A stretch of 64,000 nt of DNA. Source: Glycomyces sp. TRM65418 (GTDB taxonomy: Bacteria > Actinomycetota > Actinomycetes > Mycobacteriales > Micromonosporaceae). Made by a program: the position numbers and the translations under genes. The notes beneath the pieces are model-generated. The model was not told the DNA's origin, did no database searches, and saw only the letters and a list, made by a program, of their open reading frames with translations. This document shows, in pieces, positions 22,633-61,554 of this stretch (position 1 is its first letter; every line of letters starts with the position of its first letter). The stretch is from contig NZ_JAJFAX010000002.1 in the NCBI RefSeq assembly GCF_019710475.1, positions 186,001 through 250,000 on the forward strand, read 5' to 3'.

Positions 22633-22707
22633 GGGCCTCTAGCTCAATGGCAGAGCTGCGGACTTTTAATCCGTAGGTTCTCGGTTCGAGTCCGAGGGGG
22701 CCCACCA
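22633..22707 (+). tRNA. tRNA-Lys (anticodon TTT)
   Basis: A complete cloverleaf of 75 nt including an encoded CCA end. The acceptor GGGCCTC pairs with GGGGCCC, the D arm is TAGCTCAATGGCAGAGCT, the anticodon loop CTTTTAA reads TTT, and the T arm is CTCGGTTCGAGTCCGAG. Its 3' half (from 22671) is the att core repeated at 27905 and 61411. It is the only intact copy in the window and so should be the functional gene. Confidence 0.96.
22671..22705 (+). repeat. att site 1 (core within the intact tRNA)
   Basis: The 35-bp stretch beginning CCGTAGGTTCTCGGTTCGAG, from the anticodon stem to the acceptor, is identical at 27905-27939 and 61411-61445. As the only copy with the tRNA 5' half it is the chromosomal-type junction (attL) of the array to the right. 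Confidence 0.85.
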
Positions 22708-22863
22708 CTTCGATCCTCTGACCAGCGGTTCTATTCTCATCGGGCAACTGGGAGCGATCTAGAAACCGCTTGCCATCCTGATTTTGTGGATGTCCTGTGG
22801 ATGGGCTCGGTCCGTTGTCTATTTGGACAGTGGAGTTGAGCCACACTGCGGGCCCGGACCTAC
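22708..22863 (+). repeat. att flank (P'-type arm), copy 1
   Basis: About 155 bp right of the core is nearly the same as 27940-28101, with scattered substitutions. It contains two TGTGGAT heptamers at 22785 and 22796, 11 bp apart, 80 bp past the core. It is cut off by the IS at 22864. Confidence 0.75.
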
Positions 22864-24432
22864 TAGCTTGATTTTTAACCTTTGGTGCTGGTCAGGCACC
22901 CCTGCCTGAACGTGAGCGAAGCCCTTGCTTGATGATTCTTGTTGCGACACAACGAATCTCAACAGCAAGGGCTTCGTTTGTCTATCCTTCCTGAACCCGG
23001 TCCCGACGCGGGAGCCGGGGCGCTGCGGGCCTTCCGGGCCCGCTTCCATCAGTGCCTGAGGGCCCGCTCGGATGCGTTGTTCAAGCTGGCCGACGCAGTG
23101 CTGTGCAGTTCCGGGCCCGTGGTTTCGCTGCCGGGCCTGTCACTGACCGGGGTGTTCACCCGCGGGCACGGCGCGCTCTACGACGCTCTGGCCGCGGGCC
23201 GGATCGACGCCGACCGGCTCCGCGACGCCCTGGCCACGCAGCCGCTGGGGCGCGTATCGGGCCGGATCGTGCTCGCGGTCAATACGACCGGGTGGCTGCG
23301 CCCGGACGCGAACTGCTCCCCAGGGCGCCTGTACTGCCACGGGTCCGGGCACGGCCGAGGCCAGGACCAGATGGTGCCCGGCTGGTCCTACTCCTTCGTC
23401 GCCGCCCTCGAACCCGGTGCGAGCTCGTGGACCCAGATCCTCGACGCCACCCGCATCGGTCCCGACGACGACCCTGCCGCGGTGACCGCCCTCCAACTGC
23501 GCGCGGTGATCGACCGCCTGACCAGTGCCGGGCAGCACCGCAGCGGCGACGCGCCGATCGCGGTCGTGACCGACGGCGGCTACGACGTCCCACGCCTGGC
23601 CTGGCAACTGCGCGACCTGCCGGTGATCATCGTCGGCCGCCTCAAGTCGGACCGGGTGCTCTACGGCAGGCCCGGCCCTTGGTCCGGCCGTGGTCGTCCG
23701 CCGAAACACGGCCGGGCCTGCCGCATGGCCGACCCCGACACCTGGGGCGGGCCTGACACCGCCAGCAGCACCGAGACCGCCCGCTACGGACGGCTCGAAG
23801 CCATGGCCTGGGAAAACCTCCACTCCCGACTGACCCACCGGGCCGCCTGGATCGGCCACGAGGGCGACCTGCCGATCATCGAGGCCACCCTCATCCGCCT
23901 GAAGACCGAACGGCTCCCGCACACCGGCAAGCCGACCCCGCTCTGGCTCTGGACCTCCCAGCAAGCCCTCGACACCGACCTGCTCAATGCGATCTGGTCG
24001 GCCTGGCTGCGCCGCTTCGACATCGAGCACACCTTCCGGTTCCTCAAACAGACCCTGGGATGGACCATCCCCCAGGTCCGCGACCCCGAAGCGGCCGACC
24101 GCTGGACCTGGCTGGTCATCGCCGCGTTCACCCAGCTTGGCCTGGCCCGCGCCCTCGCCGCCGACCGCCGCCTGCCCTGGGAGGCCCCCGCAGGGCCGGG
24201 CCGACTCACCCCCCCCCGCCCGCGTCCGCCGGGCTTTCCCGAACCTTCACGCGGCCCTGCCCCGACTCACTGCGGCGCTGAAACCCTCCAAACCCGGGCC
24301 CGGAAGGCCTGCCGGGCAACGCAATCGGCGCAAAGCACCGATCCGCGACCCGGGCAAGAAAGCCAAACGCGACAAGACCATAAGAGAACGAGAACAGCGC
24401 CTGACCAGCACCAAAGGTCAAAAATCAAGCTA
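22864..24432 (+). mobile_element. Insertion sequence with 33-bp inverted repeats
   Basis: Left end 22864-22896 and right end 24400-24432 are near-perfect inverted repeats (starting TAGCTTGATTTTT, with one mismatch). A single transposase gene lies between them. The element interrupts the att flank on the left and the 3' end of a regulator gene on the right. A lone copy of the end is at 2212, and a decayed relative of the transposase is at 50590-52093. Confidence 0.85.
22917..22976 (+). promoter_or_regulatory. Stem-loop spanning the IS transposase start
   Basis: CGAAGCCCTTGCT (22917-22929) pairs with AGCAAGGGCTTCG (22964-22976). In RNA the hairpin would cover the start region (TTG 22939, TTG 22978) of the transposase. 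Such fold-back structures are known in IS10/IS50 to block translation of read-through transcripts; that role here is inferred. Confidence 0.45.
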
Positions 24433-24433
24433 A
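22939..24433 (+). pseudogene. IS transposase (DDE, IS701-like/NF041680 type) frameshifted near its C-terminus
   Basis: The first about 420 residues form an intact DDE-type transposase: FTRGHGALYDAL, RIVLAVNTTGWLRPDA, GWSYSFVAALEPGASSW, VVTDGGYDVPRLAWQLRDLP and RFDIEHTFRFLKQTLGW. A run of nine C at 24209-24217 shifts the frame; with eight C the reading continues as LTPPARVRRAFPNLHAALP to a basic tail, matching the tail of the related copy at 50.6 kb. The unshifted ORF instead runs to 24453. Either the gene is inactive, the run slips during expression, or the assembly has one C too many. Start codons are TTG (22939 or 22978), overlapped by a hairpin. Confidence 0.75.
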
Positions 24434-24925
24434 GGGCCGGGGAATGCGCTTGAGGTGCAGCGGCGGCGTGTTCTTGCTGGATTCGGCAAGGGCCGCTTCG
24501 GCGTCGGTGGCATCGACGGTGAGACCCGAGATGCTCAAGACGGCGAGGATCGCCTTCGCGCCACCGACGCCCATATGGGCTCCGGTCAGCACGGCGAGGT
24601 GGGCGACGGTGTCAGGGACCTCGAGCGGAATCTCGTCGGCGCTGCGGGGCTCGGTGTGGAAGGCCTGGACGACCTTCGCGAGGTCGGCCTTGCGCAGCGC
24701 GTCGTTGGCGGCGCGGGCGGTACGGGCGGCGCGGAGGATCTCCAGGACGCGGTCGCGGCCCCATCCCGGTCCGCCAGCGTAGGCGCCGAGGTTCGTCGCG
24801 ATGGTGTTGGCGCCGAGGCCGTGTTCCATGTGCGCTTCGACTGCGGCGTGGAGGAGGAGGCGGCGCTGTTCCTCGAACGTGCGCGCCTGCGTCCTCACGG
24901 ATTGGAGTGCTTCGGAAAGGTTCAC
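24425..24925 (-). pseudogene. Putative regulator, 3' end replaced by the IS
   Basis: A 166-aa ORF whose N-terminal half (ALQSVRTQARTFEEQRRLLL, GLGANTIATNLGAYAGGPGW) is helical with a possible HTH-like segment. Its last residues PLA and its TGA stop are read from the inverted repeat of the IS at 24432, so the native C-terminus is missing. The family is not recognised. A palindrome at 24951-24976 just upstream suggests autoregulation by a DNA-binding protein. Confidence 0.6.
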
Positions 24926-24950
24926 GCCCTCGATAGTACGCCAGTTTTTT

Positions 24951-24976
24951 CGACCAGTCTATTATTCGACTGGTCG
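24951..24976. promoter_or_regulatory. Operator-like inverted repeat CGACCAGTC-N8-GACTGGTCG
   Basis: Perfect 9-bp arms at 24951-24959 and 24968-24976 around an AT-rich centre, 25 bp upstream of the start at 24925. AT-richness and position fit a promoter with an overlapping operator. Confidence 0.55.
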
Positions 24977-25102
24977 GATTTTCGATCAAATTCATCCCAT
25001 GAATACGACACGCCCGGGGCCGAATTGCGGGAACCTTGCGCTTCTCGGTGGTAGCCACATGGGTTGATATGTCTGTTTCTGGGGCCACACAGTGCAGCTG
25101 AT

Positions 25103-25132
25103 GAAGGCCCACAGCGTGCGCTGTGGGCCTTC
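25103..25132 (-). terminator. Strong 14-bp hairpin
   Basis: GAAGGCCCACAGCG pairs with CGCTGTGGGCCTTC, loop 2-4 nt. It lies 58 bp past the end of the small membrane protein gene, in the right place to end its transcript. Confidence 0.75.
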
Positions 25133-25189
25133 GGGCACCTCGACGTCGGGTCCCGCGCGGGGGCGGCGGCTCGCCACCGCACGCGGCGG

Positions 25190-25540
25190 TCAGGTCATCG
25201 GTTCGGCCTCGGTGGTGATGGTGTCCTCGATGTGCTGGGTCAGCTCGGTGACCGCCTGTTCGACGCGCTGGAGTCCTTCATCGAGCAAGGCGCCGCGGGG
25301 TGGCGAGGCGGTGCGACGTCGGCGGTGCGATCGCTCGACGACGCGGTGCAGGCCCAGGACGGTGGCCCCCAGGGCGCTGAGGCCGATGAGCGCTGCGGCG
25401 GGTATGGGTTGGCCGGCGGCGAAGCTCAGCGCCCCGACCACCAGCCCGACGACGACTCCGGCCTGCAAGATCCCCAAGGTTCGTACTGAGAGCAGGCCTT
25501 CGGTCGGCGGCTCGTGGGGGGTCTCGTTCGGGTTCTTCAT
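25190..25540 (-). CDS. Small membrane protein (116 aa)
   Basis: ATG 25540 follows an AAGGAG ribosome site by 6 bp. Two hydrophobic helices (LGILQAGVVVGLVVGALSF and IPAAALIGLSALGATVLGL, about residues 22-62) are followed by a basic segment RSHRRRRTA and a C-terminal amphipathic helix. Size and layout recall holins or element-encoded membrane proteins, but no family is recognised. Confidence 0.65.
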   Translation of the reverse strand: MKNPNETPHEPPTEGLLSVRTLGILQAGVVVGLVVGALSFAAGQPIPAAALIGLSALGATVLGLHRVVERSHRRRRTASPPRGALLDEGLQRVEQAVTELTQHIEDTITTEAEPMT

Positions 25541-25767
25541 GGCAGCTCCTTCCGGTCTTGTGCTGCTATGAAGTTCCATGCCCGACTGGGCCCAGCTGCG
25601 CCCTTACGGCGCCATCGCGAAGATCCCAAAAAAACTTCGCCCTCCAGGGGCGCAACCGCGCCCCCGCCGGTCTAGAAGTCCGTACGCCTAACTCCGACCG
25701 ATTTCCGGAGCACAACTGCACCCCACCTTTTGGAGACTTCCCCCGTGATCACACCAGGAGACTGTGA

Positions 25768-26526
25768 ATGGACAGCCGCACCCCGCAAGTCATCGAGCAC
25801 GCCACTAACGGACCATCTGACGGCCTTGACCACCTTGACGTACCGGAACCGGACGTGTCGTCGCTCCATGCGGATGCGGCAAAGGTCGCGCGGTTCGCTG
25901 CTGACGGCTTCACCGGGCCCGAGTTCACCTGCTGGTTCAAGGAGCTACTCGACACCGCGGCCCGGGTGCTCAACGCATGGATTCTCAGCGAGATGGTCTT
26001 CGCCAAGCTCCGTGGGATCGGCATCGACTTGGAAGCGTCAACGAGCGAACGACTTGCGCTTCGGCAGCAGGCTGCCGACCGCGCCGACCTGGTCCAGTAC
26101 GCGGTCAGCGAAGCGGGCCGCACCCTCATCGACGCCCTGCGGAAGGGCGAGTGGCGACCCGACGGACGCGCGAGCGTGCAGACCTACTTCGTCCGCCGCA
26201 CGCTTTACAAGTTCCCCACGGCCTTCAGGTCGTGGCGCCGCCGGCGGCGCGCCGATGCGCGGTGTGTCGACAGGCTGGTCGACAGTGGCGAACAGCTCGA
26301 CGGCACCGAGTTCATCGAGAAGGTCGAGCGCGACGACCACTTCGAGCGGATGCTGCGCGGTGCCGAGTCCGACACCGATCGCGCCATCATGATCCTGGTC
26401 AAGGAAGAGTATTCCGAACGGGCCGTCGCCGAGCTGCTCAGCCTGCAGTCGACCAAACGCGTCCGGACCATCAAGAAGCGCATGGAGCAAGCCGACAGAG
26501 AGTTCGAGGGAGGGCACGATGCATGA
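25768..26526 (+). CDS. Sigma-factor-like protein
   Basis: A 252-aa protein from ATG 25768 with AGGAG upstream. It contains GFTGPEFTCWFKELLDTAARVLNAW, YFVRRTLYKFPTAFRSWRRRRR and a C-terminal SERAVAELLSLQSTKRVRTIKKRM that reads like a region-4 helix-turn-helix. The layout suggests a divergent sigma-70/ECF-like regulator. I cannot confirm regions 2 and 4 without a profile search. It overlaps the next gene by 8 bp, an arrangement like that of sigma factors with a partner. Confidence 0.55.
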   Translation: MDSRTPQVIEHATNGPSDGLDHLDVPEPDVSSLHADAAKVARFAADGFTGPEFTCWFKELLDTAARVLNAWILSEMVFAKLRGIGIDLEASTSERLALRQQAADRADLVQYAVSEAGRTLIDALRKGEWRPDGRASVQTYFVRRTLYKFPTAFRSWRRRRRADARCVDRLVDSGEQLDGTEFIEKVERDDHFERMLRGAESDTDRAIMILVKEEYSERAVAELLSLQSTKRVRTIKKRMEQADREFEGGHDA

Positions 26527-27580
26527 CTACGAGGAAGTCGACCCGTTCAAGGAGTTCGATGGGTGCGCCGACGACATCGACGTTCCCGAGCTGAGCGAAG
26601 CCACCATCGCCGAACTCCGCCGCGACGACGGCGTCAGCGACGACCTGCTCCAGCGCATCTTCGACGACGTGCTGGGCTCAGCCGAAACGTCCACTCCGCC
26701 CGATCGGGCGGACCACGCGGGGAGCGAGGGCGCTTCGGCGCCCTCGCCCCTGCGGGGCCCTTGGGTATATAACCCCACTCAGTTGATGGTCGATCTGCGC
26801 GACCGTTGGAGCAACGAGGCCGCAGAAGCTGTCCCCGACCACGGCATTGACGCTGTGAGCTTCGATCGGGAGCAGATGACCACCATTATCGTCCAGGTAA
26901 AACACGCTCCACTGACGCGGGATGCGCTCGCGCTCGGCGCTGCGTCCGCCCTGACGGCGAGGATCGACTCAATGCCGATCGTCGATGCGGTGCGGCGCGC
27001 GCTGGAATCGCTGTACGGCAGCATCGGTGATCCGCTTCCACCACCACCTTCGTGCTCGATGGCAAACCACCGGTGGCTTCTACCAACCGCTGGTGACCGC
27101 TTTACCAAGCCGGGAGGGGAGCATTCGGAGGCGCCGTCGTGCAGTGCCTTGTCGAATCCTCCCGGCGCCCCGAACACGGCACCGACATCGGATGACGCCC
27201 CCACCTCAACCGATCTGTTCACCTACTACCCGAAGGAGATCCCGAACCCCGACGGTTCAACACCGAAGCACCTCCCCCCTCTGGGTGCTCTCGTCTGGAC
27301 ATATCCCGTGACCGACGTCGACGTCGTCGTGTCCCTCCAGCAGGAACCGGAACCCCGTCTACCCAAGCTCGATCCCGAATCTGAACCCGACCCAGATATG
27401 GACGATGCCTCAGTCGAAGACGTCGACCAACTCCGACGCCCGATCCGCGAACTGGCGCGAGCAGTGAACGGCTTCGCCCGCACCCACCGCGCCACCACAG
27501 GCAACACGATCTACGCTGGCGACCCGAGCGCAGGCGACGAACCCGTTGTCGTGCTGACCGGCGAACTCCGGCCGTCCTAA
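26519..27580 (+). CDS. Hypothetical acidic protein coupled to the sigma-like gene
   Basis: A 353-aa protein from ATG 26519 with GGGAGGGC upstream. The N-terminal third is acidic (DPFKEFDGCADDIDVPEL). The middle includes TIIVQVKHAPLTRDALALGA and ARIDSMPIVDAVRRALESL; the C-terminal part is Pro/Asp-rich and ends in a short helical and beta region. Codon use weakens at about 27030-27110, where another frame reads TFVLDGKPPVASTNRW then stop, so a frameshift is possible there. It could be a partner (anti-sigma) of the preceding protein, by position only. Confidence 0.55.
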   Translation: MHDYEEVDPFKEFDGCADDIDVPELSEATIAELRRDDGVSDDLLQRIFDDVLGSAETSTPPDRADHAGSEGASAPSPLRGPWVYNPTQLMVDLRDRWSNEAAEAVPDHGIDAVSFDREQMTTIIVQVKHAPLTRDALALGAASALTARIDSMPIVDAVRRALESLYGSIGDPLPPPPSCSMANHRWLLPTAGDRFTKPGGEHSEAPSCSALSNPPGAPNTAPTSDDAPTSTDLFTYYPKEIPNPDGSTPKHLPPLGALVWTYPVTDVDVVVSLQQEPEPRLPKLDPESEPDPDMDDASVEDVDQLRRPIRELARAVNGFARTHRATTGNTIYAGDPSAGDEPVVVLTGELRPS

Positions 27581-27602
27581 CTCAACCTCATTGCCCACCA
27601 CG

Positions 27603-27629
27603 GCGCCGGCGGTCAACGACCGCCGGCGC
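27603..27629 (+). terminator. Perfect 12-bp hairpin
   Basis: GCGCCGGCGGTC, loop AAC, GACCGCCGGCGC, 23 bp after the 353-aa gene; followed by a short T/C stretch. Confidence 0.8.
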
Positions 27630-27656
27630 TTCTCGCTCTCACGCAAGGACGACGAA

Positions 27657-27686
27657 GGCCCGGAACCCATCTTGGGGTTCCGGGCC
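27657..27686. terminator. Second 12-bp hairpin
   Basis: GGCCCGGAACCC and GGGTTCCGGGCC around a 6-nt loop, 28 bp after the first hairpin. Two stems in series insulate segment A from the att site. Confidence 0.7.
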
Positions 27687-27841
27687 TGGCGTCTCGGCCG
27701 GGTCGGCTACTTGGCGGTGCGGGCCTTGGCCGCTCGCCCCGGCAAGCGCGACGGACAGCGGCCTGAACAAGCCGCTGAGACTACCGAGAGCCCTTTAGTA
27801 ACACCGCCTCAGAGCTTTGTCCACGTCGGCTCGGCGGGCCT

Positions 27842-27856
27842 GGATGGGCTATGAAT
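27842..27856 (+). repeat. Decayed arm-type pair left of att site 2
   Basis: GGAT at 27842 and GAAT at 27853, 11 bp apart and about 60 bp before the core, correspond to the better TGTGGAT pair found 62 bp before the core of att site 3. Confidence 0.4.
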
Positions 27857-27904
27857 GGGTTGACAGTCGCAAGGTGTAACCGCAGGTCACGGGCGCCTTT
27901 CGAA

Positions 27905-27939
27905 CCGTAGGTTCTCGGTTCGAGTCCGAGGGGGCCCAC
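27905..27939 (+). repeat. att site 2 (35-bp tRNA-Lys 3' end)
   Basis: Identical to 22671-22705. The tRNA 5' half is absent, so this is an element junction and not a tRNA gene. The next bases differ from a CCA end. Confidence 0.85.
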
Positions 27940-28101
27940 AACTCCGATTCTCTGACCAGCGGTTCTATTCTCATCGGGCAACTGGGAGCGATCTAGAAAT
28001 CGCTTGCCATCCTGATTTTGTGGATGTCCTGTGGATGGGCTAGGTCCGTTGTCTATTTGGACAGTAGAGCTGAGCCACGGCGCGGGCCCGGACCTGCTAG
28101 G
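27940..28101 (+). repeat. att flank (P'-type arm), copy 2
   Basis: Near-identical to 22708-22863. The heptamer TGTGGAT occurs at 28019 and 28030, again 11 bp apart and 80 bp past the core. The match stops at about 28101, 27 bp before the end of the RNA-ligase-like gene. Confidence 0.75.
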
Positions 28102-28127
28102 AGTTCACTAGGTCGAGAACGAGCTTG

Positions 28128-28811: not shown

Positions 28812-28869
28812 TCGCGGTGCAGCAGCGGGAGGTTTTCCTTCTGGCGTTTACGTCGTCCTATGCGGCGGG

Positions 28870-29280: not shown

Positions 29281-29290
29281 GGTCGATGCC

Positions 29291-29770
29291 ATGTCTCCCA
29301 ACGAATGGCAACCGCCGGAGCAGTGGGTCGCGGGCCTTCCCAAGCACCTCGCTTCGGCGGGCTCCCTGTTCACCGACTCTGCCGGCCGCATTCTGCTCGT
29401 CAAGCCGAACTACCGCGATCACTGGCTGCTCGTCGGTGGTCTCCTCAATGAGGGCGAGTCGCCCGAACAAGCCTGCCGCCGCGAGGTCAAGGAGGAGATC
29501 GGCATCGACCTACCTCCCGGCCGGCTGCTCCTGGTCGACTGGACGCCACCTTCCTCGGCACGGCCCCTGCCGCTGATCGAGTTCATCTTCGAGGGCGACA
29601 CCATCGAGCCCCACCAGGTCAAACTGGACACCGGCGAACTCGATGAACACCGTTTCACTCCACCTGAGCAGGCGATGTCCCTGCTGTCCAACGACGGGCA
29701 ACGACGGCTGACGGACGCACTTCGAGCCCAACAGACCGGCACCACGCTCTACCGGTCCGGAGTTAGATAA
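29291..29770 (+). CDS. Nudix hydrolase
   Basis: A 159-aa protein. The Nudix box is complete: GGLLNEGESPEQACRREVKE followed by EIG (about residues 50-72), with the RE..EE catalytic Glu residues that bind Mg2+. The N-terminus (HLASAGSLFTDSAGRILLV) is the first strand of the fold. The family hydrolyses nucleoside diphosphates linked to another moiety; the substrate is not predictable here. It lies between IS remnants and the toxin cassette. Confidence 0.9.
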   Translation: MSPNEWQPPEQWVAGLPKHLASAGSLFTDSAGRILLVKPNYRDHWLLVGGLLNEGESPEQACRREVKEEIGIDLPPGRLLLVDWTPPSSARPLPLIEFIFEGDTIEPHQVKLDTGELDEHRFTPPEQAMSLLSNDGQRRLTDALRAQQTGTTLYRSGVR

Positions 29771-49000: not shown

Positions 49001-49485
49001 CTGCTGAGAATCTGACGGAAGGAGCCTGGCTCCAGGCTGCGGCTAATAGCCAAGTTCAGGTGGTTTCCACCCAGCAAGACATTGAAGTAACGACTACATA
49101 CAACCTGAGCGTCGCGAATGCACATACGTACTTCGTCGCTGCCGGTGATGTTGATATCCTGACCCACAACTGCGGCGGCAGTGGTTCGGGGCACTCAGCA
49201 TCCTGTACCTGTACCCCAGCGGGGAGCCTCCCCTCAATTCTTAGAGGTACGAATCCGCGATCGACAAATAATGGAAAGGGCACGACCTATGACATCAATC
49301 CTTCGGCCTATGGATTCGACTCCAGGGTTGTTTCCATGAGGGTTATGTCCAGCACTAGCCGTTATCCGAATGGCTACGTTGTCTTCATGAATAAATCCGG
49401 TCAGACTGTTAATCCTCTCACCGGGAGGACGACTACAGGCAAGGCTGACCCATGGGGGCACATTCCCCTGTACCCGGGAGGCTGA
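43015..49485 (+). CDS. RHS polymorphic toxin with Hint domain and variable C-terminal toxin
   Basis: A 2156-aa protein from GTG 43015 (GTGA overlap with the LamG gene). The signal is LLAMTAAAVVTMAGLTTG then PAWAAD. A long RHS/YD-repeat shell follows (TYDALGREITTTDALGAVTT, YEYDALGRQTAKWEG), closed by the core end YDPTTGRFVSVDPIADYTNP and NMIDATGL. Next comes a Hint (intein-like) domain from Cys1896 (CKSFEAGTLVVMPDG) to THN, able to cut at its C-terminal Asn and release the about 105-aa toxin tip (SILRGTNPRSTNNGKGTTYD, KADPWGHIPL). I do not recognise the toxin family. Base composition drops in the last 0.5 kb, as in swapped tips. Confidence 0.88.
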   Translation: MTRRFPIALDSNPLGSLHVHTLPRRPRLRSLLAMTAAAVVTMAGLTTGPAWAADFQRGAQTFASSPVSAVGAAESAFDDNAADWSGAPAETGEGAGQWTATDLSSAGSWSQGGSSGAYSYSYSMRVPPAAGPTPALALSYSSAAHDGLTSGTNNQASWFGDGWGYSPGFIERTYTGCASEAEQDGNNGTDQTGDLCWDGSSPSVTMALGGINTALVLDDDSGVWHAAGDANWRIEKLGSPASASAPTSERWKVTGTDGTQYYFAAEPATTGSRWTVPVFGNHSGEACYKSGDFAGSRCTQAYRWMLDKVVDLNGNMTRYLYGTETGYYSPAADSAKDAVAFTRSGWLKRIEYGLRSDDPAVPATGRVQLVAGDRCLSDCYDTAGDPKTNKWPDTPWDLNCEAGTGCEQYAPVFFSTKRLAEVKTEVRIAATGLFDTVDTWKLTHEFKDYGDKSQVVMWLAAIRHTGHVGDGMQSTPAIEFGGTFMPNRVEDGSADPMIQRPRLTSIKNETGGVTTVNYSAPDCGVGDLPTVGESNTQRCYPAKWIPEGTYNAVDAYFHKYVVTSVAETDTTAGADTVWTFYEYSTVGGGTNVLWAWNDSEFTPEDLRTYNQWRGYTQVATLVGDPADPGPQLRTASRYYRGMDGEPLPDGTERDIMLTSTQGDTVADHEALAGQVWEQITYDNTTVIGSTITRYWTKNTAARAYDGGELKAWMTGPSQTLARAKLSDTSWQTVRADTTYDARGRVATLSNHGDVSRSGDEMCTTTEYIDNTEKWILKAPSRIETVAVVCGKPVSRPDQVLSDVRAYYDGHDFGAVPTYARMTKSETIDGWDAGPKYATLAESTYDALGREITTTDALGAVTTTAYTPTGAGPVTAVSTTNPLGHIETITIAPAWGSTTSATSAAGRKTTLTYDELGRATAVWYPGQDAPTEVPNLKFSYTVSDTAPSTTTTETMIWNQSYLTEIKIFDALMRPRQTQAETYGGRLINQSEYNSYGQLVYSSGANFNNESGPTGDLVRISRSNDVARTEYVYDTVGRVTAELFVVKDEEQWRTTTAYGGNDDYWQTTVTPPEGTSASGTLTDARGLVVQALQYHGNTPTGEPDRTRYTYTPAGLLETATDPAGHQWTFGYDLRGRQITANDPDTGTTSVTYDDAGQLLSTTANAGTSAESTLSYEYDALGRQTAKWEGAVDSGKRLSEWTYDTASAYGKGALHKSINYVDNQAWTTEYRRYDISGQPTQVLTTLPSAAGSLAGSYYEAFTYHPDGSMKTSVANATAGLTSETMTYGYDSMGQPSRVTGNSSTFGATQIYVDEALYSPYGQLLQLRLGDPADVGGTSGQTWQTWIYEEETGRLAEFYFDKVTAGEFDGTNYGIAALSYEYDQAGKITSITDQPVHTSDALQPETQCFQYDYLNRLTEAWAQSGADACAAIPTEEAVGGPGAYWSSYEYDLTGNRTAETRWTVAGRFTDTYTYETDSHALTSIATTENGPERTNYTYNETGYATSISRAGDLSILKWNSSGRLETVTNGENTTRFYDDAEGNRLVRKDPDGSITAWVAGYELHYNAAANTKQAIRYYTHAGTVIAQRTGLGAILFVASDHHGTGQWIVNGNTLTATVRRHDPFGNTRGLTQGTWPDDRGFVGGIDNTTVGLTTLGAREYDPTTGRFVSVDPIADYTNPQQLNGYAYANNDPINMIDATGLCMTGPGDTYYYPGECTSSGGGGSEPSGGPSSDPVASATSGGGTVYGEQYSSDEGGCVYVMQGAVGVPCDMWEGDLQDLVDEVEEYLYDVGDVVDPVTGMYDPVTLSRAVTDLCFGGDYYASVVDNCQMDYLEVLDDQRMAIDQAWTAEAAERNNLVGALIADLSGGPLQAGSAGFTAPWMTGSIGLQSFFRNKNFLKSCKSFEAGTLVVMPDGSTKPIEQIMTGESVLAADPTTGDIGAATVSATHTTLEQPRSLVTIGIDTNHDGEPDADITATAGHAFWAAEREARHGISALPGWITAENLTEGAWLQAAANSQVQVVSTQQDIEVTTTYNLSVANAHTYFVAAGDVDILTHNCGGSGSGHSASCTCTPAGSLPSILRGTNPRSTNNGKGTTYDINPSAYGFDSRVVSMRVMSSTSRYPNGYVVFMNKSGQTVNPLTGRTTTGKADPWGHIPLYPGG

Positions 49486-49508: not shown

Positions 49509-50099
49509 ATGAACTCATTCGCGGGAGAGCCACAGGCTCGAGATGAGGGCGGCATTGCGATGCGATCGCCGATTGATCTTGAGCGCTTCACGGAGTTTCA
49601 ACTGCTAGATTTCCGAATGAATTGCAGGAGGCAAATCGCGGGAATTCTATTCGAAGGCAGAATGGCTTTGGATCTCGATGAAGGCGATACCGGAGTATTG
49701 GTCGCTCGGGAAGTGGTTGAGTTTCAATGGGAATCCGAGGTTCGAGTAAGTTCAAGTACGGCATGGAATAGCATAACTGCAGAAATTAGCGATTCCGGCG
49801 ACCTTTTGGCGCTTGAGATGGAGTTTATGCCTGTGGCAAAGCTTCGAATCCTTGCGCGAGCGCTTGGTTTCTTCGAGGTGAAGGCCGATAGACTTTCAGG
49901 TATTGGGATTCCAGATTATGCTGCTTCGGAAAATGAGATCAAATCTGCACTCGTGGATTGGGAAACTCCAGTTGCTGTCGTGCGAAAATACGAGCTATTG
50001 AGTAGAAGCTTAGCTTGCGTTTTAATCTCTGGGCCGTTCCGGTGTGAGACGACCCCGGCGGCCATGATCCGGGCCCGGTGGTCGGCCTGGAGCCCATGA
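49509..50099 (+). CDS. Immunity candidate for the RHS toxin, 3' end altered
   Basis: A protein of about 196 aa from ATG 49509 (ATG 49560 also possible), beginning 24 bp after the toxin gene. It includes SPIDLERFTEFQLLDFRMNC, DLDEGDTGVLVAREVVEFQW and AKLRILARALGFFEVKADR, with AT-rich codons like the toxin tip. After about 50030 the sequence abruptly becomes GC-rich and reads PAAMIRARWSAWSP, unlike the rest, so the native C-terminus may have been replaced by a fused fragment. Confidence 0.6.
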   Translation: MNSFAGEPQARDEGGIAMRSPIDLERFTEFQLLDFRMNCRRQIAGILFEGRMALDLDEGDTGVLVAREVVEFQWESEVRVSSSTAWNSITAEISDSGDLLALEMEFMPVAKLRILARALGFFEVKADRLSGIGIPDYAASENEIKSALVDWETPVAVVRKYELLSRSLACVLISGPFRCETTPAAMIRARWSAWSP

Positions 50100-50183
50100 C
50101 GCCTGGCTCCGAGTTGCAGTCTTCCGCCCGGTGGAGCGACCATCGCGAGCTGACGAGTTCGCGGACCGATTCAGGAGGGTCAT

Positions 50184-50588
50184 GTGGAGGACGAAGAGCT
50201 CATACGGTTCTCCAAAATCGATATGGACGACGTCGACTATGTGGTCAAGATGTTGACGATGGATGAACTTGTTGCGGCTCATGAGCTTGCGAAGGAGCGG
50301 CGTTGGGGAGCCGCTTGGAGTTCAACTGATGCTCTGCGAGCGGAGGTAGATCCGTCCTCCCCGAAGTTCCTCCTCCCTGCCATGAGAAATGCAGCTGGTG
50401 ACATGGAGGTCGAGTCCTTGCGTTGCCATCTCTGGTTTCTCCCTCGCCAGGAACCAAAGCTCGGTCGCGCAACGACCTTCGATATCGAGCCCACTCGCTT
50501 TCGAGGACTTCGCGAAGTTCCCCAGGACAAGGCCTCCGCCGCTTTGAGACTCCTGATCGCCTGGCACCCTCTTTCTGCCACCAGTTAG
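50184..50588 (+). CDS. Hypothetical protein (134 aa), possible second immunity gene
   Basis: From GTG 50184 with AGGAGGG upstream. The sequence contains DDVDYVVKMLTMDELVAAHE, LPAMRNAAGDMEVESLRCHL and FDIEPTRFRGLREVPQDKAS. It is acidic and of immunity-protein size and sits behind the RHS toxin and its first immunity candidate. RHS loci often carry such orphan immunity genes. Family not recognised. Confidence 0.55.
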   Translation: MEDEELIRFSKIDMDDVDYVVKMLTMDELVAAHELAKERRWGAAWSSTDALRAEVDPSSPKFLLPAMRNAAGDMEVESLRCHLWFLPRQEPKLGRATTFDIEPTRFRGLREVPQDKASAALRLLIAWHPLSATS

Positions 50589-50589: not shown

Positions 50590-52093
50590 TCAACAGGTCA
50601 GCTTGCGTCTTTGGCCTTTGGCGACTGTTGCGGCCACGCGCGGTTGCCGCGGCCCAGGCCGTTGGTTCCGGGGCGTTTCGTCTGCTTGCCCGGGTCATGG
50701 CGGGCGGCTCGGTGACGGTTCTTGGCGCCTTTGGGCCGGCCGGGGCCGGGCCGGGCGGGTTTCGCGACACTGGCGGGGCGGGTGAGTGCGCCGCGGAGGT
50801 TGCGCAATCCTCGGCGGACGCGCCGGGGCGAGCACTGCCCGGGCAGTGCGGGCCGTTCCCAAGGCAGGCGATGGTCGGCGACGAGGCTGCGGGCCAACCA
50901 TAGTTGCAGGTAGACGGCCATCACGATCACTGTCCAGGCGTCGGCGGCGCGCGGGTCGCGGACGGCCGGAACAGTCCAGCCCAGGTCCTGCTTGATGTAG
51001 CGGTGGAGGTGCTCCTGGTCGAAGCGGCGCAGCCAAGCGAACCAGACCGTGTTGATCACGGCCGCTTCGAGATCGGCCCGCGAAATCCACAAGTTCACCG
51101 GATCGGGCCTGCTCTGGCGGGGCAGGTGGTCGACCTCCAGCCGCGCCACGGTCCCTTCGACGACCGGCAGCGGCCCCTCGTGGCCGACCCGCGCCGACCT
51201 TCCGGTGAGCTTCGGGTGCAGGAACCGCCAGAACCGCGACCGGACCTGCCCGTACCGGGCCGAAGACACTGTCACCGCGCCGTCGGGGACCGCCCAGGAG
51301 GCCTCGTTGGCGCATTCGTGCCGCCACCCGTGCCTGGGGTCGGGGCCCGACCGCGCCGGGAGCCTTCGGCTCGCCCCGGCCGTAGTAGACCCGGTCGGAT
51401 CGCACGCGCGAGCACACCACCACCGGCAGGTCGCCAAGCTGCCATGCCAGCCGGGCCGGGTCGTAGCCCGCATCGGTCACCAGGATGATCGGCCGGTCGC
51501 CTTCGGTCCCCTGGCCGGCAGCGACAAGGTCGACCACCACTGCCCGGACCTGCGCCACGGTCGCCTCCTGCACGTCGTCATCAGGGCCGAGACGGCGCGC
51601 TCAGCGGCACTACCCACGAAGAAGCGCCCGGTGTCAGCGACACGACGAACGAGTACGGCCATCCCGGAATCGTCTGGTCGCTGCCCCGCCCCCGCCCATA
51701 GACGCGGCAGAACAACCGCTCCGGGCTGCATGCCGCGTCCGGACGCAGCCACGGCGAGACATCCACCGCCAACACGATATGGCCCCGCATCCGCGGCAGC
51801 GGCTCGGCCAACGCCGCCGACCGGACCGCCTCGGGATCGATCCGGCCGGCATTGACCGCCGTGTACACCGACCCGTGGCCCCGCGTGAACGCATTCTCGA
51901 GCGACATCCCGGGGAGGGAATCGACCTTCCCCTCATGCTCAAGGACGGCATCGGACAGTTCGAACACCGCATCAGCCCGACCACCGATCGCAGCATAGAA
52001 CGCATCACGAAACGCCGACAAAGCTGACAGGTCGCCGGCCGTCCTGGCTTGCCCCGGCTCAGTAGCGGATGCAGTCGCGAACTCTTGTGGCAC
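50590..52093 (-). pseudogene. Decayed transposase related to the 22.9-kb IS
   Basis: Starting at 52093 the frames read NAFTRGHGSVYTAVNAGRID and HIVLAVDVSPWLRPDAACSP; then, shifted at about 51590, LVTDAGYDPARLAWQLGDLP; then, shifted again at about 51330, FAWLRRFDQEHLHRYIKQDL and RRVRRGLRNLRGAL with a basic tail. It is homologous over its length to the transposase at 22939 but diverged and broken in two places. Confidence 0.8.
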
Positions 52094-52451
52094 AACGACG
52101 ATGATGAACCATCGACCTCAGGATGCTTTCAAACACCCTGCAGCGCAAGTTAAGCAGGTTAAAACGCAAGCTGAGTCTCCGAGATCACGTGACCGATACG
52201 ATCCGGCCCGCTCCCCACCACGGGCACCACTGGGTGCGGTGGGAGAGCGGGGGACCATGCCGACGTCTAGAGACTGTGCAGGTTCGGCGTACGTCCACGG
52301 TCCGAGATTCATGGCCGCAGGCTCAGTTGCCAAGTGGACGTAACGCGGACGATCTCCAATCGTTACTGCTCTGAATGACGTTTCGACAGATGCTCTGTGA
52401 CGCCACTTCGTCCAGGCGCATGGTGCTGTCACGCGTGAACGGAGCCTTGAC
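52094..52451. other. 358-bp intergenic region
   Basis: No gene found; probably includes the promoter of the serine recombinase and may hold one of its crossover sites, which I could not identify. Confidence 0.35.
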
Positions 52452-54155
52452 ATGAGCCAGCAGCAGCGGCGCCGTGCGGTCGCCTACTACCGTGTCTCCA
52501 CCACCCGGCAAGCCCAGACCGGCAGCCAAGCCGAGGAGTTCGGTTCCTCGATCGCCAGTCAGCAAGCCGCATGCCATCGGTATGCGAGCCAACACGAACT
52601 CGACATCATCGAGGAGTACGCCGAGCCCGGCGGCACCGCAACCGCCATCGATCGCAGGCCCAAGTTCCGCCAGCTCCTGGACCGCGTGCTGCACCAGCGC
52701 GATGTCGACGTCGTGCTGGTCTACACCCGTTCCCGCGCCTTCCGGAATGCCTTCGAGGCCATGGTCATCCGCGAGGAGTTCCGGAAAATCGATGTTGAAC
52801 TGCTTTCGGTACAAGAACCGTGCGAGAACGGCCCCGAGGGCGACCTCGTGACGCTCATCCTCGACGGCGTCAACGAGTACCAGTCCCGCAAGCTCGGCAT
52901 CGACGTTGCTTTCAAGATGGCGGCCACCGCCGCCCGCGGCAGCACCCCCGGACGCGCGAAACTCGGGTACCGCAACGCCCGAACCTACGTGGACGGGCGC
53001 TCGACACCCACGATCGAAATCGACCCCGACCGCGCCCCCTATATCGGCACCGCCTTCCGCCTGTTCGCCTCCGGGCAGTACACGCTGCGGCGACTGCGCG
53101 ATGAACTGTCCAACGCCGGCCTCCGCACTCGACCGACCAAGTCGCATCCTGCAGGGGCACCGGTCACCATCACGCAGCTGACCAAGCTCCTGCGCGATCG
53201 CACCTACCTCGGCCTCGTGCAATGGTGCGGCGAGGAGTATCCCGGCAATCATCCCGCCCTGATCGACCAAGACCTCTTCGACCGTGTGCAGCGGGTGCTC
53301 AACGATCGATGCCGCAGGACCCGCGACCGCAAATGGGACCACCACCTCAAAGGCCTGCTGCAATGCGCTCGCTGTGGAGACAGACTCCACCTCGAGGTCA
53401 CCCGGAACCGGCACGGGTGGCGCTATTGCTACTTCGTCTGCGCCGGCAGGCAACCGCGCACCTGCGACCTGCCACGCCTGCCGCTCCCTGCCGTCGAGGC
53501 GGCAGTTGAAGCCCACTGGGCTACAGTCACATTCAGCCGCGACGAGAAGACCGCGATAGGTCAAGACCTGCACCGGGCGGCCCAAAGCCAGCGGGCCGCA
53601 ACCGAAGCCCTGCGACGCCGGCTCCGCAGCGAACGAACTCGACTTAACAGACTCGAAGACCAGTGCCTCGAAGTCCTCGGCCAGCCAGACTGGCCGACGG
53701 CGAAACTCACTGCACGGCTCGAACAGGTCCGCCAGCAAAGACTCGACATCAAGCGGCGTCTCGACGAACTCAAGCAACGCACCGGCGATGGACAGGCTGT
53801 CATCGACATTGCCGGTGCCACGATCGCTACCCTCGACAACCCTCGCGACCTGTTTCGCAGGCTGCCGCCGAAGCTGCGAAAAACCCTCGGTCGCCTGTGC
53901 TTCGACCACATCTCCCTCGACGTCCACAACCCCTGCAAGGAATTCCTCGGGCCCGCTCAGCCTGGAAACCGAGGCGGCATTCCAGCCACGCGAATCAATG
54001 CCGGCGACCTGGTCGTCACAGGTGAGCGGCGTGTAGAGCTCAATGTGTGCGCGATCGCCGACCTCATTATTGCTGCCACCAGAGTCAATCCGGAGGCACC
54101 AAAACGCGAACACGGTCGAGATGTCACCGTCTGGGAGATCCCGAGCTACGCCTAA
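52452..54155 (+). CDS. Large serine recombinase
   Basis: A 567-aa member of the large serine recombinase family. The catalytic resolvase domain begins AVAYYRVSTTRQ with nucleophile Ser16, followed by the conserved Arg-rich strand (VLVYTRSRAFRNAFEAMVIR). The recombinase domain (about residues 150-290: GRAKLGYRN, LRRLRDELSNAGLRTRP, LLRDRTYLG) and zinc ribbon (LQCARCGDRL ... CxxC-like YFVCAGRQPRTCDLP) are followed by a coiled-coil region (RRRLRSERTRLNRLEDQCLE). These enzymes integrate phages and elements directionally. It offers a second integration route independent of the tRNA-linked tyrosine integrase. Confidence 0.9.
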   Translation: MSQQQRRRAVAYYRVSTTRQAQTGSQAEEFGSSIASQQAACHRYASQHELDIIEEYAEPGGTATAIDRRPKFRQLLDRVLHQRDVDVVLVYTRSRAFRNAFEAMVIREEFRKIDVELLSVQEPCENGPEGDLVTLILDGVNEYQSRKLGIDVAFKMAATAARGSTPGRAKLGYRNARTYVDGRSTPTIEIDPDRAPYIGTAFRLFASGQYTLRRLRDELSNAGLRTRPTKSHPAGAPVTITQLTKLLRDRTYLGLVQWCGEEYPGNHPALIDQDLFDRVQRVLNDRCRRTRDRKWDHHLKGLLQCARCGDRLHLEVTRNRHGWRYCYFVCAGRQPRTCDLPRLPLPAVEAAVEAHWATVTFSRDEKTAIGQDLHRAAQSQRAATEALRRRLRSERTRLNRLEDQCLEVLGQPDWPTAKLTARLEQVRQQRLDIKRRLDELKQRTGDGQAVIDIAGATIATLDNPRDLFRRLPPKLRKTLGRLCFDHISLDVHNPCKEFLGPAQPGNRGGIPATRINAGDLVVTGERRVELNVCAIADLIIAATRVNPEAPKREHGRDVTVWEIPSYA

Positions 54156-57402: not shown

Positions 57403-57979
57403 TTCGGCCGCATTTGACCTTGAAATCGTGCAAGAAGTATTACCATGATTATGGCCGAGATGTCAGCACCGCGCCGCTCCTCAGTTGCCGGTGCCAACGA
57501 GTTTGGAGCTCCGCAGGCGTAAAATTATGCAGCCGAAGGTGAAGCGGTGCTAGTCGCCCCGAGGCTGGCTGGGTAATCGAGTCCCCGGCGATCTAGCGAG
57601 TACGTCTGAGCCTGATGACCTTGTCTCCTGGATGGGCGGGGGAGCGACCTTATTGCGGCGGTGGAGCCGAGTCGCACCGGGGAGGGCCGTCCGTATGTCA
57701 CTGCCTGGCCGAAGGGTTACTTGCATTTCGGTTGACTCCTCGCCATGGGAGTGGACTACCTTGAGCCCCAAAACGAGGGCGGGGTACTAGGCATTCAGCG
57801 CTCAGTACGACTTCCCGTGTGCGCCGCGGCGAACGATCCCGACCTCCCGGGAGCGCCTAATCCGAGGCGCTGGACTTGCTTCTCCTCCTAGCCTGATGGT
57901 CTGACCCTGACGCCGGCATGTCCTGGGGTGATTGCGGTAAAGGCGACCGCTGGGGCAAAGCATCAGTAGACTCGATCAG
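57403..57979. other. 577-bp intergenic region
   Basis: No gene supported on either strand. The end of the region holds the hexamer TAGACT, 7 bp before the next ATG. Confidence 0.4.
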
Positions 57980-58870: not shown

Positions 58871-58951
58871 GCCATCCGATGGACTTGGGAGTTCCAACTT
58901 TATCAGCGCCAGGGTTTACCCGGATTTCGGAATCTGATTCGCCCTCCCAAG

Positions 58952-60235
58952 TTATTCGGGCGCCGCACGGATATGTGCAGCGCCCTGACACCTCGAAACA
59001 AGGACTAGCCCCTCGGCTAAGAACAGACTGTCCGCCTGGCGGATTCTTAGAGATGAAATGCGATTGGTCCGATGATGGAGTAGCGAGGAAACAGCGGATG
59101 CATGGATAGGTTCCTCGGAGGTCGCCGACTTTTCATCATCGTCCAGGGTTGGCCATCTGGCTGTGACGGATTGAAACAGCTCAGCCGGGATTCCAGTTTG
59201 TTGCAGGATCGCGGATTCTCCTGGCCCTTCATCTGACACGAGTTCAAGAGCTCTCGGTATGAGAGAGGGGGCCTCAAGTGTTGTTATCAGGCCGGGTTCC
59301 TTGCGTCTCCAGCCTCGATTTGTAACGGTGGTCATCGCATTTCTATAACTCGATGCGCTGAGCTTTCCGACCTGACGTGCCCTATAAAGCAAGGCCTGAA
59401 TACTGATTCCCCAATGCTCCTTGAGCTCGCCCAATTGACTCCAGGCATAGCCGCTCATTACAGAGGGAAGATAGGCTTGAATTGCATCTATCGGGGCAAG
59501 AAACTCTGCCGCAAAACGGTTCGCTTGTTCCTCGATTGCACGACTCCCCGGCTCCGAATCCTCATGCATTACTAGATGACCGAGCTCATGGGCTACATCG
59601 AATCGCTGCCGATAGTAATCATTCTTGAGTGGGCTTAGAATGATAACTGACCTCGAACTCATTGCAAATGAGTATGCATCGACTGCTGCCGCACGCGCTG
59701 GACTGAAAACCACCAAGATTCCTTGGTTTTCAACCAGTCTGATCGTATTCTTAATCCGATCAAGGCCAAGTGACCACGACTCACGCACAAAACGGGCAGC
59801 CGCTTCCGGCCCGTCCCCTGCATCGTCTTCGCTGACCGGACACGAAGGTATTGCAGGCTTGGGAAACTCTACATAGGTTTCGAATACCTCTGCGACGTCA
59901 TTGGCGAGCTCGCCATAAGCACTTGCTTGATCACGCGCTACCTGTGTTGTAGAACGCAGCGAACGGAAATGCGGGCGAAGTTCGCTCCCCCGCTTCCGCC
60001 CGACAAAGAAGCCTGGAGACACCTGCAAGACCATCGCCAGTTGAGCGACGGTCTGTGGTGTAGGACGCTTCGTACCGAGCTCCCACGCGCTGACGGCGGC
60101 AGGGCTCTTACCCACCGCCTCGGCGAGTTGGCTCTTCTTCCAGCCGGCTAGGTGTCGGGCGATGGTAAGCCGATGGCCCTCGAACAGTGCGGCAGCGTCT
60201 GAAGCGCGGTACCTATTTGGTGTGTGATGAGTCAT
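58952..60235 (-). CDS. XRE-type HTH plus ImmA/IrrE metallopeptidase
   Basis: A 427-aa protein from ATG 60235 with GGAGGG upstream. An N-terminal XRE helix-turn-helix (about residues 20-75: KKSQLAEAVGKSPAAVSAWE) is fused to an ImmA/IrrE zinc peptidase domain (about 165-290: FDVAHELGHLVMHEDSEPG, then EEQANRFAAEFLAP, giving HExxH and the third ligand region). ImmA proteins cleave repressors to induce elements; fused forms occur in stress and toxin-antitoxin-like loci. It lies 17 bp after the 264-aa gene and shares its transcript. The HTH is a candidate to bind the operator at 61062-61079. Confidence 0.87.
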   Translation of the reverse strand: MTHHTPNRYRASDAAALFEGHRLTIARHLAGWKKSQLAEAVGKSPAAVSAWELGTKRPTPQTVAQLAMVLQVSPGFFVGRKRGSELRPHFRSLRSTTQVARDQASAYGELANDVAEVFETYVEFPKPAIPSCPVSEDDAGDGPEAAARFVRESWSLGLDRIKNTIRLVENQGILVVFSPARAAAVDAYSFAMSSRSVIILSPLKNDYYRQRFDVAHELGHLVMHEDSEPGSRAIEEQANRFAAEFLAPIDAIQAYLPSVMSGYAWSQLGELKEHWGISIQALLYRARQVGKLSASSYRNAMTTVTNRGWRRKEPGLITTLEAPSLIPRALELVSDEGPGESAILQQTGIPAELFQSVTARWPTLDDDEKSATSEEPIHASAVSSLLHHRTNRISSLRIRQADSLFLAEGLVLVSRCQGAAHIRAAPE

Positions 60236-60252
60236 GTTCCCTCCATGCGTAT

Positions 60253-61047: not shown

Positions 61048-61054
61048 GCACAAG

Positions 61055-61085
61055 ACTCTACCATGAGCAAACTATCATGCATCAA
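61055..61085 (-). promoter_or_regulatory. Leaderless promoter with internal operator
   Basis: On the minus strand TAGAGT (-10; plus strand 61055-61060) lies 7 bp before ATG 61047. TTGATG is a candidate -35 about 19 bp further upstream. The inverted repeat CATGA-N8-TCATG (61062-61079) sits between the two boxes, where bound protein would block transcription. Confidence 0.45.
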
Positions 61086-61342
61086 ACTGAACTAAGGGTA
61101 TGATTTCATGAGGACATCTGTACTGTTCCGTGAGGTCTCGGACCGTTCCCCGGAGCTTATACCGACGGTGTGACATCGATGGCCGCGAACAGGGCGAGGA
61201 GCTTCGTGTCCGCCCCTCGTTGGTGTTGGAGGTCGGCCCAGTGCTCAGCGGGCGACGCTTGGTGTCGATCTTCGTGTTGCTGAGGGCGGCCGGCAGCGCG
61301 CTGCAGTACGGACGCCGCCGCCGAGGGCGGTTGGCCGGAGGT

Positions 61343-61360
61343 TGTGGATGTCCTGTGGAT
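61343..61360 (+). repeat. Arm-type pair left of att site 3
   Basis: TGTGGAT at 61343 and 61354, period 11 bp, ending 50 bp before the core. Same spacing and sequence as the pairs at 22785 and 28019. Confidence 0.65.
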
Positions 61361-61410
61361 AAGTTGGCCGCGGTTTTGGTTACGCCGCAGGTGAAGGGCT
61401 GCTTTCGAAA

Positions 61411-61447
61411 CCGTAGGTTCTCGGTTCGAGTCCGAGGGGGCCCACCA
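61411..61447 (+). repeat. att site 3 (tRNA-Lys 3' end with CCA)
   Basis: The 35-bp core of 22671-22705 followed by CA. The tRNA 5' half is missing, so it is an att junction. It is flanked by arm pairs on both sides (61343 and 61537), an attP-like arrangement. Confidence 0.85.
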
Positions 61448-61536
61448 TCGTAACCGCCTCAAGCAGCGTTATCGCTGTTCGCGGCAGTTTTGTGTTTTCC
61501 GGCCATGGTAGTCGGCAGCCGGCTTCCGCATGTATT

Positions 61537-61554
61537 CGTGGATGGGCTGTGGAT
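61537..61554 (+). repeat. Arm-type pair right of att site 3
   Basis: CGTGGAT at 61537 and TGTGGAT at 61548, again 11 bp apart, about 92 bp past the core. The surrounding sequence weakly resembles the arms right of att sites 1 and 2. Confidence 0.55.

Follow-up and report, generated by a model that had tools for sequence, protein, structure and literature searches.

A putative integrative and conjugative element in Glycomyces that splits tRNA-Lys(UUU), supplies a replacement gene and appears to expose it to further insertion

Introduction

How does a genome come to keep its only tRNA-Lys(UUU) gene directly behind an integrase gene, with further copies of the tRNA 3' end strung out in direct orientation to the right of it? 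The question is raised by a 64,000-nucleotide stretch of Glycomyces sp. TRM65418 (the window; C12:186001-250000, that is, part of contig C12 of the 37 contigs of the 5.09-Mb genome G000). From the comparison of sequences, we consider it highly probable that an integrative and conjugative element (ICE), here called E, splits the tRNA-Lys(UUU) gene and supplies a replacement beside its own excisionase and integrase genes (xis and int), and that the borne tRNA then becomes the target for stacked segments. The features that carry this view can be read directly in the DNA: a split tRNA 5' half, a full tRNA behind int, matching junctions in two genomes, an uninterrupted site, arm-type sites on the element side of the attachment (att) sites, and conjugation genes.

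Results and Discussion

A split tRNA-Lys gene lies 84 kb upstream of the intact one

To delimit the locus, the contig was compared by blastn with regions from relatives, nearly all of them congeneric. The conserved chromosome ends at C12:122,152 and resumes at 268,631, and between these flanks lies a 146-kb island at the tRNA-Lys(UUU) locus, with a guanine-plus-cytosine (GC) content of 63-69% compared with 71-72% outside. The entire window, including the part left of the tRNA, is inside the island. A sequence-only reading of the window had proposed a tandem array of integrative elements, which colinear relatives without insertion polymorphism would contradict; the polymorphism is real, with relatives that lack the window's segments and a chromosome that picks up again on both sides.

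A genome-wide tRNA search gave 47 matches, the weakest of which, at C12:124,788, is a 5' half only. The intact tRNA genes found were all decoded (46/46), and among them Lys-UUU was decoded once, in the window (Table 1), and Lys-CUU at C5:1855. The full tRNA-Lys(UUU) gene lies 120 bp behind the element's integrase and has an upstream block, GATRCGGTAWGGTC, resembling the block of several native genes; it is presumably expressed, and, on general grounds, the cell would need it to read AAA codons.

The 5' half (C12:124,788-124,834) lies 84 kb upstream of the window's tRNA and ends ..AATCCGTAGGTT. At this left junction, ..GACTTTTAATCCGTAGGTT switches to CAGGCTTACTC, and arm-type sites follow at +137, +148 and +174, the first two forming an exact pair. 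A decayed copy of the window's integrase, with internal stops, stands immediately before the split half, and the sequences in front of the split half and in front of the window core agree at 83% identity across 773 bp. Farther left, between the conserved flank and the decayed integrase, C12:122398-123781 holds two open reading frames (ORFs) with chromosome-like third-position GC.

Matching junctions were found in a second genome, G009. There, a native tRNA-Lys 5' half of the GGGTCTA type stops at the same bases and is followed by GAGGCTTACTC; 65 kb past this half come an int gene, 63% identical, and a full tRNA-Lys of the GGGCCTC type with a D-loop one base longer than that of the window's tRNA; and a further 36.5 kb leads to a left arm pair, CCATAGGTT and the native tRNA 3' half. 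The left and right junctions have CCRTAGGTT in common, and the crossover falls within TAGGTT, in the variable-loop region, bounded on the left by the CCA of the element (CCG in the host) and on the right by the first base after TAGGTT. ARAGORN called no tRNA at the left junctions (L072 and L075) or at the right junction of G009 (L067). With up to 3 mismatches allowed, the left junction sequence occurred in 2 of 354 family genomes, namely G000 and G009.

When joined, the two G009 flanks form an intact native tRNA-Lys and align across the junction with the uninterrupted sites of 8/8 relatives, which were picked from the available regions of the tRNA-Lys locus and include two carriers of the E-type allele (G011 and G014). 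The alignment is a single piece of >1.2 kb in seven of the eight (L085 aligned in two pieces), and two of these seven (L090 and L056) end near the tRNA 3' end. Because the joined flanks rebuild tRNA-Lys and align with the relatives, we conclude that E inserted into an intact tRNA gene.

In the accretion of genomic islands and cis-mobilizable elements (CIMEs), integrase-less segments flanked by att sites lie next to an ICE, and the sequence-only reading had named this pattern as its precedent. Ordinary accretion at the 3' end of a host tRNA-Lys, with int upstream by chance and the second tRNA piece a stray duplicate, would fit a core that is a tRNA 3' end and direct copies that partition the right side as in known tandem elements. 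We nevertheless regard it as decidedly unlikely: the 5' half at 124.8 kb has the element-type junction of G009, where the native tRNA is interrupted and both halves were found, and the entire window, also left of the tRNA, lies between the conserved flanks. Of the proposed precedent, the tandem att sites and the stacking stand; what has to be replaced is the target, which at this locus is not the host's tRNA but one borne by the ICE that split an older tRNA-Lys. Further, because the int of the ICE lies 5' of the borne tRNA, the left third of the window also belongs to the element. Assigning int to an unrelated element left of the tRNA was rejected, as the decayed int with the split tRNA at 124.8 kb, and G009, fit better.

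E resembles an ICE in gene content

From split tRNA to full tRNA, the G000 stretch spans 84 kb and its G009 counterpart 65 kb, with colinear blocks in common. E encodes a Replic_Relax relaxase (PF13814), a TrwB/TraG-type coupling protein (PF10412), a VirB4/TraG ATPase (PF19044) and PrgI (PF12666), together with a weak, below-cut-off TrbL-like match. Judged by gene content (relaxase, coupling protein, type IV secretion ATPase, integrase and excisionase), E is an ICE. No capsid or tail gene was found among the 30 entries of E that were scanned with Pfam. The assignment of xis follows from the position and domain of a 97-residue helix-turn-helix gene. The int product scored just below the PF00589 cut-off in one search and just above it in another; R295, K343, R421, H444 and Y453 are present, Tyr418 replaces the first His of HxxR, and these are presumably the residues that fill the motif roles. 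Its phage relatives are distant, the 14 records aligning over roughly half of the protein at 24-30% identity.

Across 52 integrase loci, including that of the window, the tRNA faces int at 33 (31 distinct genes), runs in the same direction at 3 (the window, G009 and G171) and was not called at 16. In the 22 genus genomes, the only integrase matches fetched as loci that adjoin tRNA-Lys are those of G000 and G009. At the third same-direction locus (L099; G171:C1:56771-56854), a tRNA-Ser(UGA) lies directly behind a related integrase and is the sole match to its anticodon arm in that genome. No split tRNA-Ser was found in the first 80 kb of its contig, nor a second anticodon-arm copy genome-wide; this is perhaps a second case of a borne tRNA. 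Elsewhere in G000, a second same-family integrase (L043; C12:26946-28256) lies at tRNA-Arg(CCU) and has its own TCTGACC pair spaced 11 bp.

The tRNA core recurs together with paired arm-type sites

The three direct 35-bp cores listed in the sequence-only reading (S2 to S4 in Table 1) are exact and mark off segments of 5.2 and 33.5 kb. A further element right of 61447 had also been suspected, and a search of the window's own contig indeed revealed a fourth core, S5, with 2 mismatches, beyond the window end at window 66786, with a right arm pair of its own at 66899/66910 (one mismatch). The claim of arms on both sides of the inner cores was borne out, as was the decayed pair before the second att site. 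Four TGTGGAT pairs had been given as exact at a spacing of 11 bp; three are so (beginning at 22785, 28019 and 61343), and the one at 61537 begins with CGTGGAT.

S5 and the G009 right junction have CCATAGGTT and 126 bp of left flank, at 71% identity, in common. Because of this resemblance, E most likely extends from C12:124,829 to S5. On the element side, the left (P) arm pair stands at -71/-60 from TAGGTT at S4 and at the same positions at G009 site 3, and it is decayed at S3 and S5. The right (P') arm pair begins at +110 to +137, and a third right-arm site, TGTGGAC or a variant, follows 26 bp past the second heptamer at the G000 sites (26-28 bp at most sites overall). The 187 bp downstream of TAGGTT are 94% identical between S2 and S3.

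TGTGGAT occurs 15 times in the window (5.8 expected). As an exact pair at 11 bp, it occurs four times in the 5.09-Mb genome, always at att sites of the tRNA-Lys locus, against ∼0.005 pairs expected genome-wide at an assumed GC of 70%. Allowing one mismatch gave nine pairs genome-wide, six at att sites of the tRNA-Lys locus and three elsewhere; the reversed control gave none. A repeat of any 7-mer at 11 bp was seen at 10 window positions and hence is not rare per se, so that the non-chance component is the particular heptamer and its placement rather than 11-bp repetition as such. Arm sites were absent in the relatives G011, G014, G018 and G004, whose tRNA locus is free of E-type elements.

Within 180 bp behind int, 19 of 46 other integrase loci, among which related ones are not independent, have an exact 7-mer repeated at 11 bp (the window, G009 and the fragment loci L036, L037, L038 and L044 being excluded), and several different 7-mers are involved; other spacings from 7 to 60 bp gave 0-5 loci each. 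The 11-bp spacing is a trait of the integrase family and is not peculiar to the tRNA-Lys locus.

TGTGGAT is also part of the DnaA-box consensus. A reading of the pairs as DnaA boxes, instead of arm sites for the integrase, would fit the three pairs with one mismatch that lie outside the locus, with the sequence TGTGGA(T/G/C)AACCTGTGGA(A/T). This is very improbable, however, given that every exact pair lies within ∼150 bp of an att core, on its element side, and that relatives with different heptamers retain the 11-bp spacing behind int.

Segments appear to be stacked on the borne tRNA

At S3, S4 and S5 the sequence runs from P arm through core to P' arm, as two adjoining elements would give. 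Because no tyrosine integrase was found in the 5.2-kb segment F1 or the 33.5-kb segment F2, these are unlike complete ICEs. With a profile of 25 family integrases, the only matches in G000 C12:106-306k were the window's int and its decayed copy; the stretch from G009 gave its known int alone, and those from G006, G011, G012 and G014 gave no match. Similarly, no conjugation gene was found in 27 scanned ORFs of the segments (6 in F1, 18 in F2 and 3 in F3). The preferred reading of F1, F2 and perhaps F3 is as elements that piled up on the borne tRNA, although one of the segments may be the right end of E; F1 and F2 most likely inserted into the tRNA of E later, and S4-S5 may be E's own right end. 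On the simplest and most likely reading, F1-F3 would have been moved in trans by the Int of E.

Two other origins of the segments have to be weighed. They could have belonged to E from the start and have been separated by homologous recombination at the repeated tRNA 3' ends, with which the lack of a detectable tyrosine integrase in any of them and the 187 bp of 94% identity at S2 and S3 agree. We judge this unlikely, because the inner junctions have the arrangement of abutting elements, even with a decayed P pair at S3 and S5, and because what the G000 segments have in common with the G009 segment is limited to short similarities. The other is that xis, int and the tRNA form a fixed integron-like platform, in which a single integrase gathers integrase-less cassettes with common arm sites. 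A single intact same-family int is present for the att sites, and the segments do bear the same heptamers; yet the block itself travels with E, the segments are large and mixed (toxin-like genes, a transposase and a serine recombinase), and the decay of arms points to sporadic rather than regular capture. As the leading account, this platform was set aside, and we consider it improbable. In the comparison with integrons, the model matched by int was phrog_1, and each att site consists of a tRNA core accompanied by arm pairs.

Possible traces of allele replacement in other species

The reading of E as an ICE that brings its own tRNA-Lys bears on the alleles of its relatives. Five of the 22 genus genomes share an identical 72-nt tRNA, and G019 has the same allele with 7 unknown bases; the tRNA-Lys locus was read in all of the 22 but G020 and G021. 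In G006 and G012, E-type DNA lies directly upstream of the sole tRNA-Lys(UUU) found by pattern search, and in G012 it comprises ∼240 bp and reaches the core. Protein and profile searches found no same-family int near tRNA-Lys in either genome. A flanking-DNA tree of 20 genomes, in which two of three regions are incomplete (18 and 14 genomes) and some deeper nodes are weak, placed G000 and G012 among GGGTCTA-type species, with supports of 1.0 (G000 and neighbours) and 0.8 (G012 and G009). Overall, AAA codons seem to be read in at least these two species by a tRNA that an E-type element left behind, and these genomes make tRNA replacement by mobile DNA directly testable. In G011, G014 and G019, the allele lies behind a native-type promoter. 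G014 also has a 14-kb segment (L063:15129) that separates tRNA-Lys from a displaced core without TGTGGAT arms, which suggests that another integrase type uses the same tRNA-Lys.

A proposed course of events and points that weigh against it

The following course is consistent with the findings above. E would integrate via its short core into the variable-loop region of tRNA-Lys(UUU), destroying the gene, with Int bound to the arm pairs presumably recombining within the TAGGTT stretch. The complete tRNA-Lys next to xis and int would take over the lost function, and the cell would come to depend on it, making the loss of E lethal unless excision restored the old gene. Because the att core is retained in it, the tRNA of E would also be a fresh attB. 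An earlier round is indicated by the decayed int that precedes the split tRNA and by the arm pair to the right of S5; in it, an older E-type tRNA, with the decayed int before it, would already have become the host gene and then been split by the present E. Once an element is lost, its tRNA could persist as a host allele.

We extend this only tentatively to a self-renewing platform, in which each arriving ICE would destroy an essential tRNA and put in its place a new copy, serving at once as essentiality lock and as next att site. ICEs and integrase-less cargo would then nest, and element-borne alleles would repeatedly replace the host's tRNA gene; on present evidence we lean against so broad a claim. 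If it is true, an essential gene would form the base of an integron-like collector, and conjugative elements would drive tRNA gene turnover. The apparent use by a conjugative element of the rescue logic described for phages (below) points to essential-gene capture as a more widespread means by which mobile DNA resists loss.

Several points weigh against the proposed course. The genus genomes compared are drafts. In G000, the native tRNA halves were not found at C12:121.8-124.8k or 252.8-270.5k, and full closure therefore rests on G009. Of S2-S5, S5 is the most likely, but not a certain, right end of E. A PF00589 search found no integrase in the G000 segments; it also missed the same-family integrase at C12:26946 that the protein search found, so that absence by this search alone is weak. 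None of 85 plasmid records had a relative of the E coupling protein at ≥60% identity, all being below, and conjugation is accordingly judged by gene content only. Finally, G011, G014 and G019 may be the original owners of the allele, which would be native there, and fewer replacements can thus be claimed.

Relation to known systems

Phage-borne tRNA rescue of a split host tRNA was shown experimentally in 2024 for the tRNA-dependent lysogeny of actinobacteriophages (Fionnbharth; subclusters K4, K6, L and X) (PMC10865867). As with E, these phages often use tRNA-Lys(TTT) and have arm-type sites flanking attP, with a core of 10 bp. E has the features of tRNA-dependent integration, namely a short common core, insertion into a tRNA gene (presumably by the integrase) and no tRNA rebuilt at the junctions, and in both G000 and G009 the borne tRNA is of the disrupted isotype, Lys(TTT), and lies behind int. 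Unlike those phages (PMC10865867), E encodes conjugation functions, and its scanned entries include neither a capsid nor a tail gene, so that by gene content it is not a temperate phage; its tRNA lies directly behind int in the same direction, and this borne tRNA appears to have been struck by further elements. Tandem integration into a borne tRNA, with a second plasmid using it as attB, is raised there as speculation only (PMC10865867).

In Sinorhizobium meliloti, prophages and islands carry replacement tRNAs, and an inactivated host tRNA is, as with E, replaced by an element-borne isoacceptor of foreign type (PMC11476347). According to that report, evidence that borne tRNA genes serve as new integration sites is lacking, whereas the borne tRNA appears to be so used here, and the elements described are phage-related, including islands of prophage origin. 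S. meliloti prophages in tRNA genes without tRNA-dependent lysogeny are described in the corresponding part of another report (PMC12429752). The actinomycete ICEs Fean5518 and Fean5534 of Frankia are likewise in tandem at tRNA-Lys, with tyrosine integrases acting on tRNA genes, and a borne replacement tRNA is not mentioned in the passages concerned (PMC3218068). ICEAfe1 of Acidithiobacillus ferrooxidans, as portrayed in the part of the source considered, is also an ICE in a tRNA gene (tRNA-Ala) with additional tRNAs, and differs from E in carrying a whole set of many tRNAs (PMC10322971). On that partial account, it is a possible precedent for a conjugative version. An anticodon stem/loop segment is said, in the title of a work cited there, to decide recombination.

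Searches of one open-licence library by title and abstract, some of them narrow, gave no conjugative element with a rescuing tRNA. In so far as that negative allows, a conjugative form of the system is new; so are the apparent use of the borne tRNA as a further target and the signs that the host allele was replaced in two other species.

Other genes and features of the locus

Coordinates of the features are collected in Table 1. The window part of E also encodes a LysM-like protein and an Mrr-type restriction gene. PADLOC, applied to 10 proteins, matched 18122-19033 to type IV/II restriction and PDC-S02 and gave RmrA-type and weaker matches for 58952-60235; the other eight gave nothing.

Table 1. 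Features of the tRNA-Lys locus in window coordinates
Feature	Position	Strand	Remarks
ICE E (putative), right part	1-22632	+	blastn blocks of 74-81% identity with G009, Pfam; left end C12:124,829, ∼61 kb left of window
T2SSE-type secretion ATPase	8323-10125	+	PF00437, E value 2.5e-37
First T2SSF gene after T2SSE	10089-10997		PF00482, E value 1.3e-13
Second T2SSF gene after T2SSE	10919-11845		PF00482, E value 3.6e-5, just below cut-off
xis-like excisionase gene	20795-21088	+	97 amino acids, helix-turn-helix; overlaps int start; PF12728 HTH_17, E value 1.1e-6
int, tyrosine integrase	21088-22512	+	474 amino acids; phrog_1 integrase, E value 6.7e-22
tRNA-Lys(UUU), complete, element-borne	22633-22707	+	anticodon TTT; ARAGORN
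att core S2, inside tRNA gene	22671-22705	+	exact 35-bp core
Right (P') arm pair of S2	22785-22802	+	TGTGGAT at 22785/22796, exact, 11 bp apart
Third, weaker site by S2 right arm	22822		TTTGGAC
Segment F1	22708-27904	.	5.2 kb; no tyrosine integrase found
DDE_5 transposase gene in F1	22939-24453		∼235 bp after core
Decayed left (P) arm pair of S3	27839-27856	+	CCTGGAT/TATGAAT at 27839/27850; -69/-58 from TAGGTT
att core S3, displaced tRNA 3' half	27905-27939	+	exact 35-bp core
Right arm pair of S3	28019-28036	+	TGTGGAT at 28019/28030, exact
Segment F2	27940-61410	.	33.5 kb; no tyrosine integrase found
NUDIX gene in F2	29291-29770
LamG protein in F2	38798-43018		1406 amino acids
RHS-repeat protein with pretoxin-HINT domain in F2	42274-49485		2403 amino acids
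Large serine recombinase in F2	52452-54155		best phage family phrog_95; CcrB likeness far below model cut-off
Helix-turn-helix/M78 peptidase protein in F2	58952-60235		strong PADLOC RmrA match, E value 5e-100
Left (P) arm pair of S4	61343-61360	+	61343/61354, exact; -71/-60 from TAGGTT
att core S4, displaced tRNA 3' half	61411-61445	+	exact 35-bp core
Right arm pair of S4	61537-61554	+	CGTGGAT at 61537, TGTGGAT at 61548, one mismatch; TGTGGAC at 61574 as third site
Segment F3, or right end of E	61446-64000	.	5.4 kb core to core; continues to S5 at window 66786

An insertion sequence, marked by the DDE_5 transposase gene, may have truncated F1. In F2, the RHS/pretoxin-HINT protein and the adjoining LamG protein are polymorphic-toxin-like cargo, and the serine recombinase possibly marks a nested element of its own. 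Two stretches of F2 (50011-50505 and 51982-52181), mutually inverted, are 94-96% identical to DNA ∼5 kb downstream of the tRNA-Lys of G002, which suggests recent exchange at the same locus. In G009, a short CRISPR-like array, with repeats containing CTGCTCTCCACGGACGTGGAGGTGT, was spotted by eye just before the right junction (L067).

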